Shown here: positions 6,126 through 45,560 of the stretch, in pieces
How the letters are laid out: each line of letters starts with the position of its first letter
Position numbering within the stretch: the stretch's first letter is position 1
NCBI RefSeq assembly: GCF_028292925.1
Contig: NZ_JAQGLK010000048.1
Location: forward strand, 1 to 54,539
DNA length: 54,539 nucleotides
Source: Sphingomonas bacterium
Lineage (GTDB): Bacteria > Pseudomonadota > Alphaproteobacteria > Sphingomonadales > Sphingomonadaceae
Direction of reading: 5' to 3'
The notes under the pieces: generated by a model
The model's input: only the letters and a program-made list of their open reading frames with translations
Told to the model about the DNA's origin: nothing
Databases searched by the model: none
Position numbers and translations under genes: made by a program

Positions 6126-7081
6126 TCCCGCCGCCGAGTGCGCCCGCATTCCTCGCCGAAAACGGCTGGGGGGATGCCGAAATCCTGCCGCTCGCCGGGG
6201 ACGCATCCTTCCGCCGCTATTTCCGCGTTGTCGCGCCCGGTCGTGCCGCGGTGCTGATGGACGCCCCGCCGCCGCACGAGGACCCCCGGCCGTTCCTGCA
6301 CGTGGCGGGGCATCTTGCCGGGCTGGGCTTCGCGGCGCCGGCCATCTACGGGAGCGACCTGGACCGGGGGCTCGTCCTCCTCGAGGATTTCGGCGACGCG
6401 CGGATGGCCGAGGTGATCGCCGCCGAGCCTGGGCGCGAGCAGGCGGTGTATGCCCAGGCGATCGACCTGGTTGCCGATCTGCATCGTCATCCCCCGGCCG
6501 CCGCGCTGCGCCCCTACGACATGGCGGAATATCAGCGCGAGGCCGGGCTGTTCACCGAATGGTATGCGCCCGCGGTCGATCTCGCCGTCGATGGCGAGGC
6601 TTACCGCGCTGCCTGGGGCGAGGCGCTGGCGCCGCTGGCCACCGTGCAGGCGGTGACGGTGCTGCGCGACTACCACGCCGAGAACGTCATGCTGCTGGGC
6701 GACGGCCGGCTCGGGCTGCTGGATTTTCAGGACGCGCTGGCCGGGCATCCCGCCTACGATCTCGTCTCGTTGCTGCAGGATGCCCGTCGCGACGTGTCGC
6801 CGGAAATCGAGGCGGCGATGCTGGATCGCTACGCCGCCGCTGCGCCGCTCGACCGCGCCGCCTATGCCCTTCTGGGGGCGCAGCGCAACGCGAAGATCCT
6901 CGGCATCTTCACCCGGCTGTGGAAGCGTGACGGCAAGCCGCGCTACCTGGCGTACCAGCCGCGTGTGTGGCGCTATCTGGAGCGCGATCTCGCCCATCCG
7001 GCGCTCGCCCCCGTGGCCCGCTGGTTCGATGCGAACGTGCCCGCCGCCGCGCGCGCCCCCGCCTGGAGCACACACGCATGA
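6098..7081 (+). CDS. amgK: AmgK, anomeric N-acetylmuramate/N-acetylglucosamine kinase
   Basis: A 327-residue kinase of the aminoglycoside-phosphotransferase fold. AmgK phosphorylates the anomeric hydroxyl of MurNAc (and GlcNAc) released during wall turnover, giving MurNAc-1-P for MurU. Visible are the nucleotide-binding GDASFRRYFRV near the N-terminus, the catalytic loop VLRDYHAENVML (Asp, His, Asn) and the metal-binding LDFQDA. The start ATG at 6098 is chosen because GGGAG lies 5 bases upstream; Met9 is a weaker alternative. It overlaps tsaE by 28 bases and murU by ATGA. Adjacency to murU makes the assignment firm; alone it would be called a generic phosphotransferase. Confidence 0.93.
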   Translation: MAAIDVPIMIPPPSAPAFLAENGWGDAEILPLAGDASFRRYFRVVAPGRAAVLMDAPPPHEDPRPFLHVAGHLAGLGFAAPAIYGSDLDRGLVLLEDFGDARMAEVIAAEPGREQAVYAQAIDLVADLHRHPPAAALRPYDMAEYQREAGLFTEWYAPAVDLAVDGEAYRAAWGEALAPLATVQAVTVLRDYHAENVMLLGDGRLGLLDFQDALAGHPAYDLVSLLQDARRDVSPEIEAAMLDRYAAAAPLDRAAYALLGAQRNAKILGIFTRLWKRDGKPRYLAYQPRVWRYLERDLAHPALAPVARWFDANVPAAARAPAWSTHA

Positions 7082-7839
7082 GCCGCAGCGCCAAGCCGAT
7101 GTCGCTTCGGCCCAAGCCCACCGCGGCGCCGATCCGCACCGCGATGGTGATGGCGGCAGGCCTGGGCAAGCGGATGCGCCCGCTCACCATCACCCGCCCC
7201 AAGCCGCTGGTGGAGGTGGCCGGCAAGCCGTTGATCGATCACGTCTTCGGGCGGCTGATCGCGGGCGGCGTCTCGCGCGTCGTCGTCAACGTGCATTATC
7301 TGGCCGATGCGCTCGAGGCGCATGTCCGCCGCAGCTTCCCGAACATGGAAGTGATCTTTTCCGACGAGCGTGCCGAACTGCTCGACACGGGCGGCGGCGT
7401 CGCCCGCGCGCTGCCGCTGATCGAGGACGATACGTTCCTGGTTCTGGCGAGCGACATCTTCTGGATCGACGGACCTGTCGACGCGATCAGCCTGCTCGCC
7501 TCGCGGTGGGACGATGCGAGGATGGATGCGCTGCTGCTGCTCGTGCCGCTGGCGCGCGCCCATTCGCACCGCGGCACCGGCGACTTTCACATGGATGCGA
7601 TCGGCACGATCAGCCGCCCGCGCCAGGGCAAGCTGGCGCCGTTCGTCTATGCCAGCGTGCAGATCGTGTCGCGCCGGCTGTTCGCCGATGTGCCGGAAGG
7701 GCCGTTTTCCACCAACCTGCTGTGGGATCGGGCGATCGCCGCCGGCCGTGCCTTCGGCGTCGTCCATCAGGGGCTGTGGTCCGAGGTCGGCGTGCCATCC
7801 GCCATTGCCGAGACCGAGGCGCTGCTCACCGGTGGCTGA
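7078..7839 (+). CDS. murU: MurU, N-acetylmuramate-1-phosphate uridylyltransferase
   Basis: A 253-residue sugar-1-phosphate nucleotidyltransferase that turns MurNAc-1-P plus UTP into UDP-MurNAc. This closes the recycling shortcut that bypasses MurA (the fosfomycin target). The signature AAGLGKRMRPLTITRPKPL binds the nucleotide, and LDTGGGV and SDIFWIDGP (catalytic metal Asp) follow. The start ATG overlaps the amgK stop. There is a basic N-terminal extension of about 20 residues before the catalytic core. The 3' end overlaps the addB start by 8 bases. Confidence 0.92.
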   Translation: MSRSAKPMSLRPKPTAAPIRTAMVMAAGLGKRMRPLTITRPKPLVEVAGKPLIDHVFGRLIAGGVSRVVVNVHYLADALEAHVRRSFPNMEVIFSDERAELLDTGGGVARALPLIEDDTFLVLASDIFWIDGPVDAISLLASRWDDARMDALLLLVPLARAHSHRGTGDFHMDAIGTISRPRQGKLAPFVYASVQIVSRRLFADVPEGPFSTNLLWDRAIAAGRAFGVVHQGLWSEVGVPSAIAETEALLTGG

Positions 7840-41109: not shown

Positions 41110-41245
41110 CCGCTGACGCCACGGCGGTTGGGAAGGATCGTTGTAAGCCTCCGGGTTGTGGGGCAGATAGCCTGGCACCGACGCTGCCGGTGCGCACGCC
41201 GCCGGCGCATTGTGAATGGGGGAGATCGCAGGCGGTGATCGAGGC

Positions 41246-42634
41246 ATGATCAAATGGCGGATTGCCGCAGGCAGCGACGCGATCTTCACTTCGTGTGGTG
41301 AGAAGCAAGACGGGGCAGTAAAGTTCGGCGCAAGCGGTGGATGCCTGGTCCATGGGCCTTATCTGGATCTGCCCGCTGGGCAACTGACGGCAAGGCTGAT
41401 GCTCGCGAGACCCGCCACCGGGCGCGTACGACTGGATTTCGCGCTTGATCATGGACTTACCGTGCTGGCGAGCAGGGAAGTCGATTGTGCGCCGGATGAC
41501 GATCATCTCGAAATCACCTGTGAGTTGCCCGGGCATGTCCAAGGCGCGGAAGTTCGCCTGTTCGTCGAGGACGGCATGGATCTGACCGTTACCGAAGTGC
41601 AGATCGATGTGGATACGCCTCAGCCGCAACCGCCCGCGCCAGATCGGCCTGTCGGGGAAGAGTCGCGAAAGACCTTCGCCGAAAAGGTGAACAGCGGCTT
41701 CATCGACACTTACCTGTCGGGCAAGTCGATCCTCGAGGTCGGATTCAGGGGGTATCGCGACGAGATCGTTCTTCCGATCGTGCCTCAGGCGATCGGTGTC
41801 GATATCGGTTATCCGGGGTATGACGGAAAAGTTCTTCCGTTTGCAGATGAGTCCGTCGACGCGATATATACGAGCCATTGTCTCGAACATATCAGCGACT
41901 ATCAGGGCGCGCTTCGGGACTGGTACAGGCTCCTGAAGGTCGGTGGATATCTGATCATCGCGGTGCCGCATCAATATATGTTCGAGAAGCAGCGCAACCT
42001 GCCCTCACTGAGCAACCACGATCATAAGAGATACTATACATCCGAGTCCCTGTTGCGGGAGATATCGGGGTCGTGGCCGGAAAATAGCTATCGCATCAGG
42101 CAGCTCGTAGAGAACGACGCGGGGTTCGATTACTCCTTGCCTCCCGAAGAGGCGTCGCCGGGCTGCTACGAGATCGAGATCGTGGTTCAGAAGATGAAGG
42201 TTCCGATGTGGCGACTGGCCGACGGTTCAGTCCGGACCTACGGTGCCGCGGAATTTTACGGGGCTGGCCCCCGGACGAACCTCTGGAGCATCGATCTGGA
42301 CTTCGCGAGCGAGGGGCCGTGCAAGGTATGGGGGCCGTATGCGCGCCTAGTGCCGGCGGAGTATGAGGCCATCTTTCACTTCGAGAGCGAGCTTGGAGGC
42401 GAGGTCCTCCCCCGTGACATAACCCTGGACGTTGCCGTCGACAGAGTGCGGGTGGCGGCGCTCGCGCTGTCCGGACATGACGGGGCGGAGCAACTACGCT
42501 CCGGCGCCATCCGCGTGCCCTTTCAAGTAGTTGAAGATGTGTCGCACGTGGAGTTCAGGACGTTCGTTGACGCTTCCCAGTCGAATGGACGGCTTTCCTT
42601 CAAGGGCGTGACCGTGCAGTTTCAGCGAGCCTGA
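41246..42634 (+). CDS. Class I methyltransferase between two related beta-rich domains
   Basis: A 462-residue protein of unknown target. Middle part (about 145-300) is a SAM-dependent methyltransferase: ILEVGFRGYRDEIVLP (motif I, residue 162 on), a GVDIG acidic strand, VDAIYTSHCLEHISDYQGAL and RLLKVGGYLIIAVPHQ (Methyltransf_11 type). Flanks: residues 1-125 and about 330-462 are two beta-rich domains that resemble each other, both with a GGC/GPC-x-V-x-GPY-x-x-L core. Such flanks suggest binding of a polysaccharide or surface glycan (inference). Base composition and codon use look less GC-rich than neighbours (more ATA, AGA, TTC/TAT), and it stands alone, hinting at transfer. Start uncertain: ATG 41246 or 41216. 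Confidence 0.8.
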   Translation: MIKWRIAAGSDAIFTSCGEKQDGAVKFGASGGCLVHGPYLDLPAGQLTARLMLARPATGRVRLDFALDHGLTVLASREVDCAPDDDHLEITCELPGHVQGAEVRLFVEDGMDLTVTEVQIDVDTPQPQPPAPDRPVGEESRKTFAEKVNSGFIDTYLSGKSILEVGFRGYRDEIVLPIVPQAIGVDIGYPGYDGKVLPFADESVDAIYTSHCLEHISDYQGALRDWYRLLKVGGYLIIAVPHQYMFEKQRNLPSLSNHDHKRYYTSESLLREISGSWPENSYRIRQLVENDAGFDYSLPPEEASPGCYEIEIVVQKMKVPMWRLADGSVRTYGAAEFYGAGPRTNLWSIDLDFASEGPCKVWGPYARLVPAEYEAIFHFESELGGEVLPRDITLDVAVDRVRVAALALSGHDGAEQLRSGAIRVPFQVVEDVSHVEFRTFVDASQSNGRLSFKGVTVQFQRA

Positions 42635-42641
42635 CGGGCTG

Positions 42642-42669
42642 CCGCAAGATCCGTCGCGGGGTCTTGCGG
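42642..42669 (+). terminator. Hairpin after the methyltransferase gene
   Basis: CCGCAAGATCC pairs with GGGTCTTGCGG (one G-U pair) around a 6-base loop, 7 bases past the stop codon. Confidence 0.6.
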
Positions 42670-42759
42670 ACCGGCCCATCGAACGCTGCACCGGCCGATA
42701 CCGGCAATCGGCAGGCGCAATCGCTGTGCCCGGCCGGAGCCGCAGCCAGTTCGTGTTCG

Positions 42760-44076
42760 CTAATATTCGTACGCCTTCGGCTTCGCCCCCTCCTGCGGTG
42801 TCAGATAGCGATCGCGCAGCTTGGTCTGGTGGTTCGTGAGGGGTTGCGCCACGCCGTCGATATAGACGGCGCTAACCGCGGTGCTCAGTTCCAGCGGGTC
42901 GCCATCCCAGATCACCACGTCGCCGCGTCTGCCGGGGCGGAGCGTGCCCATGTCCGCGCCCACACCCAGCGCGTCGGCGGGGCGGCCGGTGATCGCGGCG
43001 AAGGCATCGTCCCACGTCAGCCCGGTCGCGCCGGGCACCTTCGTCAGCGCGACGAGGTTGCCGGCATATTGCGTTTCCAGCCGGGCCTGCCGCGCCTCGT
43101 TGTCGTTGATCATGCCGATCGACACCTTCACACCCGCCGCCTGCATCCGCCCCATGTTCGACTGGGTGGCGGCCAGCTGCTCGAACGAGGCGGGCAGATC
43201 GTTGAGCGCGGAGGCGATCACCGGCACGCCGGCGGCGGCGATCTGCGCGGCGACCGTCCAGCCTTCGGTCGCGCCGACCAGCACCATCTTCAGCGCCGGC
43301 ACCTCGCGCTTGAGATCCAGCACGGCCAATATGTCCGATCCCCGCTCGACATGGACAAGGAGGGGGGTGCGCCCCTCGATCACCGGCACCAGCGCCTCGG
43401 CATCGGCGCGGGTGAGAAGGGCATCCTTGCCGCGATCGTCGAAGCTCGCCGGGTTGCGCGCATAGGTTCGCGCCTCGAAGATGGCGTTGCGCAGCATCGC
43501 GAACGCCGCCGGGCGGCTGCCGCCCGCGGCGCGCGCGCCCGCCTCGCCCGCTTCCATGAACTGGAAGGCGCGGGGGCGGGTGACGGCGGCCATGTCCGCG
43601 CCCAGATCGATGATCGCGCCCTGCCCGGCGAAGATCGATCCGCGGCTCTCCGGCGCGACGATCGCGCGGGTGACGCCGGCGGCGCGGTTGACCGCGATCG
43701 CGGTGGTCCGCGGGTTGACGGCCGGGGCGACATCGATCGCGGCGTGGAAGGGGGTGTTGCCGGCGGCGCTGTCATCGGTGGCGGCGACGCCGTCGACCTC
43801 GACGATGCCCATCCGGGTGAAGCCGGCGAAGATCCCGGGCGACACCCACTTGCCCCCCGCATCGACGGCGGTGATGCCGGCCGGCACCGCAACGCCGCGC
43901 CCGGCGGCGACCACCCGGCCGCCCTGGATCACGACGGTGCCGCCATCGATCGGTGGCGATCCATCGCCCAGAACCAGCTTTGCGTTGGTGATCGCGATCG
44001 ACTGGGCGGGCGCGGCACCGGGGACGGCGGCGATCACAGCGGCCGCCGCGGCGGCGCGGAGGAAAGCGCGGTTCAC
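42760..44076 (-). CDS. Secreted amidohydrolase-like protein with degenerate metal site
   Basis: A 438-residue exported protein of the amidohydrolase (imidazolonepropionase-like) superfamily. GTG start at 44076 overlaps the stop of the upstream amidohydrolase (GTGA) and opens a signal peptide (VNRAFLRAAAAAAVIAAVPGAAPA/QS). The N-terminal beta-sandwich (AITNAKLVLGDGSPP, GGTVVIQGGRVVAAG) and the C-terminal GTLRPGRRGDVVIWDGDPLE match the family. But after KWVSPGIFAGFTRMG the usual HxH metal motif is missing, so at least part of the metal centre is lost. Perhaps a non-catalytic partner of its neighbour or a different chemistry. Confidence 0.88.
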   Translation of the reverse strand: MNRAFLRAAAAAAVIAAVPGAAPAQSIAITNAKLVLGDGSPPIDGGTVVIQGGRVVAAGRGVAVPAGITAVDAGGKWVSPGIFAGFTRMGIVEVDGVAATDDSAAGNTPFHAAIDVAPAVNPRTTAIAVNRAAGVTRAIVAPESRGSIFAGQGAIIDLGADMAAVTRPRAFQFMEAGEAGARAAGGSRPAAFAMLRNAIFEARTYARNPASFDDRGKDALLTRADAEALVPVIEGRTPLLVHVERGSDILAVLDLKREVPALKMVLVGATEGWTVAAQIAAAGVPVIASALNDLPASFEQLAATQSNMGRMQAAGVKVSIGMINDNEARQARLETQYAGNLVALTKVPGATGLTWDDAFAAITGRPADALGVGADMGTLRPGRRGDVVIWDGDPLELSTAVSAVYIDGVAQPLTNHQTKLRDRYLTPQEGAKPKAYEY

Positions 44077-45560
44077 TTGACGTCTCCTTCGCCGGGCTGG
44101 CCAAGTTCGAAATCGGCCACTGGGCGCGTCTTCGGATCGTTCATGTCGTACATGACGGCGCCGTCGATCCAGACCTTTTCGGGCCGGGTGTAGACGCTGA
44201 ACGGATTGCCGTTCCACAGTACCGCATCCGCCATCTTGCCGGGCTTCAGGCTGCCGGTTCGGTCGGCTATGCCGAGCGCCCGCGCCGGGCCGATCGCCAG
44301 CCACGTCCATGCCAGCTCGTCCGAAATGTCGATGCCGACGCGGCGCCCGGCGGCGAGCGTCTTGGCGACTTCCTGGTTGAGCCGCTGGATGCCGTTCTCG
44401 TCGTCCGAGTGGATCATCCCGCAGGCGCCGGCCTTTTGCAGCAACGGCAGGTTTTCGGAGATGGCATCGTAGGACTCCATCTTGAAGCCCCACCAATCCG
44501 CCCACACCGCGGCGCAACTGCCGTTCGCCTTCAGCAGATCGGCAATCTTGTACGCCTCCACCGCATGGTGGAAGGCGGTCACCTTGTACCCGAACTCCTT
44601 GGCCATATCGAGGACGTTGGCCATTTCATCCGCGCGGTAGCAGTGGTTGTGGACCAGGATCTCCCCGGCCAGCACGCCGCGCAGCGTGTCCATCGCGATG
44701 TCGCGGGTCGGTGGATCGCCGCCATTCTTCTCGTACTTGTCCCATTTGCGCTTGTATTCAACCGCCTTGGCCCACGTCTCGCGATCGACCGCCATGTTGC
44801 CCATCCGGGTCGACGGTTCGCGGTTGCGGCCGCCATAGACGCGCTTGGGATTCTCGCCGCACGCCATCTTCAGCCCATAAGGCGCACCGGGGAACTTCAT
44901 GCCCTGCGTGGTCCGGGCGTAGACGTTCTTCAGCGTCACCGAACGGCCGCCGAACAGGTTGGCGGATCCCGGCAGGATCTGCAGCGTGGTGACGCCGCCA
45001 TTGACCAGCGCGCGGCTGAACCCGGCATCCTGCGGCCAGACGCTGTGTTCGGCCCATACCTCCGCCGTCACCGGGGCGGTGCTTTCGTTGCCGTCGGATA
45101 GCGCCGGTACGCCTGGGGAGGGATAGTCGCCGAGGTGGCTGTGGACGTCGATCACGCCGGGCGTGAGCCACTTGCCCGCGCCGTCGATCGTCGTCGCGCC
45201 GGCAGGGGCGCTCAAGGCCTTGCCGATGGCGACGACCTTGCCGTTCGCGAAGATAGCGTCGCCACCATCGATGCGACCGCCCTCGCCATCGAAGATGGTG
45301 ACGCCCCGCACCAGGGTCGGCACGCCGGGATAGGCCCTGTAGGTGGAGGGGAAGGGATCGTGGCTGTAGCCCTTGTTGAGCCCCGGCGCGGGCTTCTTCG
45401 CCGCGGTCGACCCGGCCGATTTGGTGTCTCCGCCGCCATTGCCGCACCCGGCGAGGGCGAGCGCGGCGAGCAGCGTCGCGGTGCCGCGGAGCCACGAGCG
45501 GTGGGCGGGGCGGGGGAAGGGGAGGCGAGCGAGGGCGATACGGGTGTGCATGGCGGCCAT
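44073..45560 (-). CDS. Secreted amidohydrolase lipoprotein, likely active
   Basis: About 495 residues. After a basic N-terminus and hydrophobic stretch comes a lipobox (LAALALAGCGNGG), so it is probably a lipoprotein. Amidohydrolase motifs are intact: LTPGVIDVHSHLGDYPSP (HxH), ILVHNHCYRADEM, VTAFHHAVEAY, CGMIHSDDENG (catalytic Asp), and the closing LKPGKMADAVLWNGNPF. Family members cleave cyclic amides or dipeptides; substrate unknown. Start uncertain (45560, 45551 or TTG 45587). Coupled to the degenerate homologue downstream. Confidence 0.9.
   Translation of the reverse strand: MAAMHTRIALARLPFPRPAHRSWLRGTATLLAALALAGCGNGGGDTKSAGSTAAKKPAPGLNKGYSHDPFPSTYRAYPGVPTLVRGVTIFDGEGGRIDGGDAIFANGKVVAIGKALSAPAGATTIDGAGKWLTPGVIDVHSHLGDYPSPGVPALSDGNESTAPVTAEVWAEHSVWPQDAGFSRALVNGGVTTLQILPGSANLFGGRSVTLKNVYARTTQGMKFPGAPYGLKMACGENPKRVYGGRNREPSTRMGNMAVDRETWAKAVEYKRKWDKYEKNGGDPPTRDIAMDTLRGVLAGEILVHNHCYRADEMANVLDMAKEFGYKVTAFHHAVEAYKIADLLKANGSCAAVWADWWGFKMESYDAISENLPLLQKAGACGMIHSDDENGIQRLNQEVAKTLAAGRRVGIDISDELAWTWLAIGPARALGIADRTGSLKPGKMADAVLWNGNPFSVYTRPEKVWIDGAVMYDMNDPKTRPVADFELGQPGEGDVK

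Follow-up and report, generated by a model that had tools for sequence, protein, structure and literature searches.

In a stretch of 54,539 nucleotides from a Sphingomonas bacterium (contig NZ_JAQGLK010000048.1), which was analysed as a whole and is called the window here, one gene encodes a predicted methyltransferase whose core is bracketed by two β-rich flanks that resemble each other. This raises the questions of whether the two flanks belong to one domain family, whether they arose by duplication within the gene, whether the gene was acquired by transfer, and which substrate such an enzyme could act on. For the domain of the flanks the name "GPY domain" was coined in this analysis, and the coordinates of the features discussed are collected in Table 1.

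Table 1. Positions of the gene, its predicted parts, the hairpin at its 3' end and a related locus of the same genome
Feature	Position	Strand	Remarks
Whole gene (predicted class I methyltransferase core between an N-type GPY jelly roll and a C-type GPY domain)	41246..42634	+	462 aa
N-terminal GPY domain	41246..41623	+	residues 1-126; predicted CBM6/35-like jelly roll; match of the 26-copy HMM at residues 16-128
SAM-dependent methyltransferase core	41642..42223	+	residues 133-326; assigned by Pfam, predicted fold and conserved motifs
C-terminal GPY domain, C subtype	42239..42631	+	residues 332-462; match of the 26-copy HMM at residues 345-461; order of predicted strands shared with the N domain
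GC-rich hairpin overlapping the stop codon, without a T run	42632..42681	+	-33.6 kcal/mol, z -3.66
GT9-half hybrid and next ORF	L032:5115-6611 and 6611-7150		own genome, contig C137

Two flanking domains and a methyltransferase core

The first-pass annotation had described a methyltransferase between two copies of a β-rich domain that share the pattern C-x-V-x-GPY-x-x-L, and this description was borne out: the motif is present at residues 33-42 (CLVHGPYLDL) and 359-368 (CKVWGPYARL), and the similarity of the flanks extends beyond chance. When the profiles of six N-flanks and seven C-flanks were compared with hhalign, they aligned over 100 columns (Prob 94, E 1.4e-7) with a score of 48.75, which was reached by none of 200 column-shuffled C profiles (best 23.9), the reversed-profile control giving 9.95; omission of the rows of the window protein left the score at 48.80. 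The homology of the flanks rests on an HMM built from 26 copies in other proteins rather than on this comparison. The HMM matches both the N-flank (iE 2.3e-12) and the C-flank (iE 1.6e-14) of the window protein and also finds two copies in each of six other family proteins tested, with a third, meaningless segment in two of the seven family proteins (iE 2.4 and 4.1), and the best of 500 shuffled decoys scored 4.1 bits. As the searches that yielded the 26 copies used profiles in which the two-copy methyltransferase family was represented, the choice of copies is not independent; the HMM itself contains none of the sequences of that family. Judged by sequence, the N- and C-flanks of the window protein are one domain family. 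Five residues (G, P, Y, E and R) are invariant across 19 diverse GPY copies and could be structural.

No Pfam entry matched the flanks up to E 10. A single NCBIfam row (exodeoxyribonuclease III, residues 109-156, E 0.097) and a similar row among PDB sequences (LexA, E 0.53) were weak and were taken as chance, and for the 19 of 41 GPY copies that were scanned no fitting Pfam or NCBIfam family was found. Profiles of carbohydrate-binding modules (CBMs), applied to 19 of the 41 copies, gave as their best match CBM_4_9 in one copy (E 0.033); as no CBM profile matched significantly, the GPY domain is not filed in any known CBM family. The best row of a sequence search for a solved relative was AlBeta86 (E 0.0074, 51 profile positions). 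Neither the GPY domain nor the two-copy methyltransferase layout was found described in a literature search. The GPY domain is a real, unnamed domain, and the layout is absent from the libraries and the literature searched, in agreement with the earlier remark that no named family has this layout.

Structure prediction and comparison with carbohydrate-binding folds, both proposed in the first-pass annotation, were carried out for the N-flank. The AlphaFold2 model of the N domain (2 sequences; pLDDT 82, pTM 0.72) is all β except for one short turn and is predicted to be a jelly roll. Among the 50 matches listed by Foldseek against the PDB, most are CBMs (CBM6, 61, 86, 35, 36, 29), the first being a CE2 esterase, with E from 2.7e-6 and TM-scores by query length of about 0.4-0.64. 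In VIA the model was nearest to CBM35 and CBM6 jelly rolls, with Z 12.5 for the CBM35 of 4qaw (118 residues, 2.6 Å), Z 12.2 for a CBM35 with glucuronic acid (4qb2) and Z 12.1 for the CBM6 1uxz; other jelly rolls score nearly as high (Cry4Ba toxin, Z 11.5; ephrin receptor, Z 10.6), and jelly rolls of tail and unnamed proteins were listed from a viral structure library. The fold similarity of the N domain to CBMs does not establish its function. CBMs are known chiefly from degradative enzymes that are secreted. The jelly roll of CBM6, CBM35 and CBM36 resembles the predicted N domain over nearly its whole length; these modules are carried by secreted hydrolases, whereas the GPY domain, which has no significant CBM sequence match, belongs to biosynthetic enzymes that are presumably cytoplasmic. 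In the full-length model (pLDDT 69) the strands of the C-flank follow each other in the same order as those of the N-flank, and by this predicted order and by homology to the N domain the C domain is likely also a jelly roll.

The part between the flanks contains the motifs E164-x-G-x-x-G169, D186, SHCLEHI (210-216) and DHKRxYT (259-265). Pfam Methyltransf_11 (PF08241) matches residues 195-238; the score of 42.5 bits exceeds the cut-off of 21.2, and the match covers positions 52-95 of the 95 of the profile only. In comparisons with class I methyltransferase structures the core reached up to Z 13.6 (3cc8, 161 residues, 3.9 Å). Within the full model, pLDDT falls below 50 at residues 168-174, 187-194 and 247-256, that is, in motif I and part of the presumed SAM pocket and ahead of DHKR. 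In all seven aligned proteins motif I reads E-[VI]-G-[FY]-x-G-Y, the canonical form being E/D-x-G-x-G-x-G, and E164, G166, G169, D186 and S-H-C-x-E-H are invariant. From its Pfam match and predicted fold the core is a class I SAM methyltransferase, and it would be catalytically active. WbdD-type chain terminators are characterised by a kinase domain beside the methyltransferase and by a coiled-coil molecular ruler; for the window protein neither Pfam nor NCBIfam revealed a kinase family, and in a DSSP analysis of the full model no helix longer than 13 residues was present. Among six full-length proteins identity is 58-74% in the core, 29-46% in the N-flank and 26-65% in the C-flank; such a conserved core with drifting flanks is as expected if the flanks are specificity parts.

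Relatives of the core with the DHKRxYT motif are also present in 12 IMG/VR viral contigs (L050-L061), and for the 8 of 12 loci that were aligned they are 34-54% identical to the window protein across the core. The eight viral frames that were read are 189-265 aa long and stop about where the core ends, whereas the window protein continues into the C-flank. In two further loci (L034:7734-8579 and L035:8006-9007) a DUF4214 domain lies ahead of a related core (49 and 48% identity), and no GPY domain was found in these two proteins.

Carrier proteins, subtypes and capsule-gene context

With the C-type profile A3, the GPY domain was detected in 18 of 397 genomes of the family and in 3 of 385 genomes of the class, and with the mixed profile A8 in 8 of 398 genomes of a phylum sample, the own genome being included in each count; four of these last eight are weak partial matches in one genus of another class (L130-L133). 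The only protein scanned among these four, L130, has a Sulfatase domain and appears OpgB-like by eye. The two-copy methyltransferase occurs in 6 of 397 family genomes, as seven proteins, one of which (L072, G697) is truncated at the end of its contig. Altogether 41 distinct GPY copies were found in 34 proteins. Besides the seven two-copy methyltransferases (14 copies) and the methyltransferase L031 (one copy), there are 26 other carriers, namely seven FkbM proteins, seven GT9-half hybrids, one TylF, one GT4 and one GT32-like (Gly_transf_sug) protein, three other methyltransferases, two unknown proteins, two without another domain in view, and one glycosyltransferase-like (no Pfam family) and one coiled-coil-like protein, both labelled by reading.

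The GT9-half hybrids, of about 480-590 aa, combine the C-terminal part of the same core with the N-half of GT9 and a C-type GPY domain. In the own genome the label is based on a BLASTP match of hybrid residues 203-335 to a GT9 protein (E 3e-12), and for the other six (L037, L038, L039, L073, L074 and L088) on the likeness of their frames to it; Pfam did not list GT9 on the hybrids. The own-genome hybrid matches core residues 200-325 only and is without motif I. The ORF that follows it contains the other half of the GT9 profile (positions 108-237 of 247, 49 bits), so that this GT9 appears to be divided between two genes, the GPY domain lying where it is broken. Two capsule-locus proteins of 390-400 aa with an H-T-P-Y motif (L032:7798-8997 and L041:1204-2370) matched no Pfam family at E 0.001 and perhaps contain a related β domain.

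That one domain had been duplicated around the core, as was suggested earlier, is contradicted by the relationships among these copies. HMMs built from N copies only and from C copies only score weakly on each other's sequences (5-19 bits), whereas the N-HMM reaches 57 bits on the TylF fusion and 55 bits on the glycosyltransferase-like protein, and a GT9-half hybrid scores 58 bits with the C-HMM. The tree of all 41 copies unites the N copies in one clade (99/98) and places the C copies with those of the GT9 hybrids and two others (87/96). Holding N and C copies together as one clade was rejected (delta lnL 28.5, p-AU 0.00185, in a tree with several long branches), and with it a recent duplication within the gene. 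Given the separate affinities of N and C copies in the tree and in the HMM scores, the window protein joins two GPY subtypes. A joining of separate parts also fits with L031, in which an FkbM domain replaces the N copy while the core and the C copy are kept, and with the DUF4214 proteins.

The first-pass annotation had considered surface glycans as likely targets, and this agrees with the gene neighbourhood of the closest homologue and, more generally, with that of the GPY domain. The closest homologue (62% identity, genome G170) is located in a kds/kps cluster, between kdsA/kdsB/kdsD/WcbI-TPR and kdsC. This cluster comprises genes for a 3-deoxy-8-phosphooctulonate synthase, an FkbM protein, a CMP-Kdo synthetase, a KpsF/KdsD-type isomerase, a WcbI-TPR protein and a KdsC-type phosphatase; a Capsule_synth gene is about 5 kb from the homologue, and a GPY-FkbM gene lies in the same stretch. 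In the own genome, contig C137 carries a GPY protein together with KdsA, two Capsule_synth genes and KpsE-like, KpsM-like and polysaccharide-export genes, all three of which are below NCBIfam cut-offs, and on C12 a GPY-FkbM gene is near hldE. The window copy itself is not beside capsule genes, and the full-length copies L042, L033 and L044 are likewise among unrelated genes, outside such clusters.

Capsule_synth (PF05159), the family of the KpsC/KpsS-type genes, is present in 116 of 397 family genomes, the presence counts of GPY and PF05159 being taken to cover the same 397 genomes. It was found in 15 of 18 GPY genomes, the exceptions being G008, G117 and G154, against 101 of 379 others (Fisher p 1.7e-6, kinship ignored), and in all six genomes with the two-copy protein (p 6e-4, kinship ignored). 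For at least 11 of the 32 GPY copies a listed Capsule_synth gene is no more than 35 kb away, where about 0.6 such copies would be expected; because related genomes are not independent, these Fisher and Poisson values overstate the significance.

Gene boundaries and probable acquisition

The reading frame was verified, with an ATG at 41246 and a stop codon at 42632-42634. In several homologues the first Met is at, or a few residues ahead of, a conserved Trp (MIKW, MLKW, MKW), which favours the start at 41246 over an ATG at 41216. The gene had been described as standing alone with its own terminator, and each of these statements holds in part. The downstream neighbour is convergent, and a dehydrogenase ORF on the same strand ends 136 nt upstream. 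As to the terminator, the strong hairpin given in Table 1 is possibly the end of the transcript; the scan near the gene yielded no T-tailed terminator, and a classical one was rejected; the hairpin has no T run. No tRNA was detected in the window.

The gene was correctly noted to be less GC-rich than its surroundings. Its G+C content is 0.594. The 35 other called window genes of at least 150 aa have a mean GC3 of 0.867 (sd 0.021), and the methyltransferase gene, with a GC3 of 0.703, falls 7.9 sd short of it; its codon usage is also the most deviant in the window (z -5.3). Genes for the contexts and for codon usage were called by a simple script with approximate starts, the methyltransferase gene being called from 41399. 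As all six relatives measured are also lower in G+C than their own loci, the low G+C is partly a family trait. Identity is out of step with the genus: the window protein is 62% identical to that of G170, a genome of another genus, and the G170 protein is 42 and 44% identical to the two copies of G110, which belongs to the same genus as G170.

The neighbouring genes were also compared. A close counterpart of the upstream dehydrogenase (68%) was found in only 1 of 29 other genomes searched. The downstream amidohydrolase pair (42763-45560) is kept as a pair in 5 of 6 genomes examined, with differing neighbours, and in none of them was a methyltransferase of this kind seen within 1.5 kb of it, which fits an insertion of the methyltransferase gene and does not prove it. 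Neither flanking gene had a match in the same-genus genome G034 (87% complete). The suggestion that the gene had possibly been transferred can be put more firmly, in that the codon-usage outlier, the patchy occurrence and the identity out of step with the genus indicate that it was probably acquired horizontally.

Proposed function and alternative explanations

The reading that we favour, and regard as somewhat probable, is that the protein is a cytoplasmic methyltransferase of a nascent surface polysaccharide, most likely a Kdo-linked, ABC-exported capsule or a glycan from the same type of cluster, in which two CBM-like modules hold the acceptor. Inspection by eye reveals no signal peptide, and the enzyme is therefore expected to work in the cytoplasm. 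The core would transfer a methyl group from SAM to the nascent glycan, and the two GPY jelly rolls would bind the growing chain, perhaps at two places, and so keep it close to the active site. Catalysis, the location, sugar binding, capsule as the substrate and a sugar hydroxyl as the methylated group are all what we infer for this protein. On FkbM, TylF and glycosyltransferase-type proteins the GPY domain may represent a common part for acceptor recognition that is exchanged between enzymes, and the methyltransferase gene, having presumably been acquired horizontally, would operate from outside the capsule locus of its cell.

Two known systems of ABC-transporter-dependent glycan assembly resemble this arrangement in part. 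According to PMC11231755, the terminator ORF6 of Klebsiella O7 is a methyltransferase-kinase with a predicted Ig-like CBM and hence has, like the window protein, a methyltransferase fused to a CBM-like domain; ORF6-O7 has a single internal Ig-like domain and, like WbdD, a kinase, whereas the window protein shows no kinase match and has two flanking jelly rolls. The C-terminal carbohydrate-binding domain of Wzt (PMC9445017) is a jelly roll that recognises the methylated chain end in ABC-type glycan export; it is fused to the transporter ATPase and recognises the cap, whereas the GPY domain is fused to enzymes, the two being likened by fold and role and not by sequence.

A third comparison leads to the main rival. 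The top Foldseek matches of the full model were to BcsB of cellulose synthase (E 1.2e-6), with a TM-score of only 0.19, so that the likeness is one of layout only. In PMC11379886, BcsB is described with two CBD-flavodoxin-like repeats, its jelly rolls alternating with α/β domains as in the window protein, and its CBD-1 jelly roll binds the TPRs of BcsC; BcsB itself is periplasmic and without a methyltransferase. As TPR proteins are found near GPY proteins in capsule loci, the GPY domains could dock the enzyme to polysaccharide-assembly proteins, for example to the TPR-carrying proteins of these loci, instead of binding sugar. The small number of invariant residues in the GPY domain would also suit docking. 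We consider this rather unlikely, as the nearest solved folds are mostly sugar-binding modules and the GPY domain occurs on very different catalytic cores, also in genomes without PF05159.

Another alternative keeps the methyltransferase active and changes its substrate to some other glycan or to a small sugar or lipid precursor, as of an exopolysaccharide or a glycolipid. Such a substrate would agree with the position of the window gene away from the capsule contig, with the absence of PF05159 from 281 of 397 family genomes, and with the homologue of G043. This homologue has a DegT aminotransferase fusion and a GT2 gene as neighbours, and the two listed Capsule_synth matches of that genome are on another contig. 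Given that PF05159 accompanies the full-length protein in each of its six genomes and that the closest homologue is within a Kdo/capsule cluster, this substrate seems unlikely. Still less probable, and in our view improbable altogether, is a stray or non-catalytic copy, the core being a scaffold, as may hold for the GT9 hybrids, and the gene a relic of transfer. The lack of motif I in the hybrid of the own genome and the form E-x-G-x-x-G instead of E-x-G-x-G-x-G in the window protein point in this direction, while the intact frame, the invariant motif residues and the core as the best-conserved part of the protein argue against it.

Beyond the favoured function as a methyltransferase of nascent capsule-type glycan, we put forward tentatively, as a possibility about which we are doubtful, that GPY domains form a so far undescribed family of carbohydrate-binding-like modules inside the cell and serve as an exchangeable address tag on the enzymes of Kdo-linked capsules in Sphingomonadaceae. 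Enzymes of different chemistry (methyltransferases of several types, glycosyltransferases) would then be directed to one and the same nascent chain by related domains, and an exchange of N and C subtypes would alter the choice of the glycan, or of the part of it, that is modified. The related domains on several other capsule-cluster enzymes hint at such a shared, swappable targeting part. A domain that recurs on many capsule-type enzymes whose cores are otherwise unrelated would offer a testable way into the questions of how nascent chains are held and how decoration enzymes find them, and it would mark glycan-modifying genes that lie far from their cluster, such as the gene of the window.
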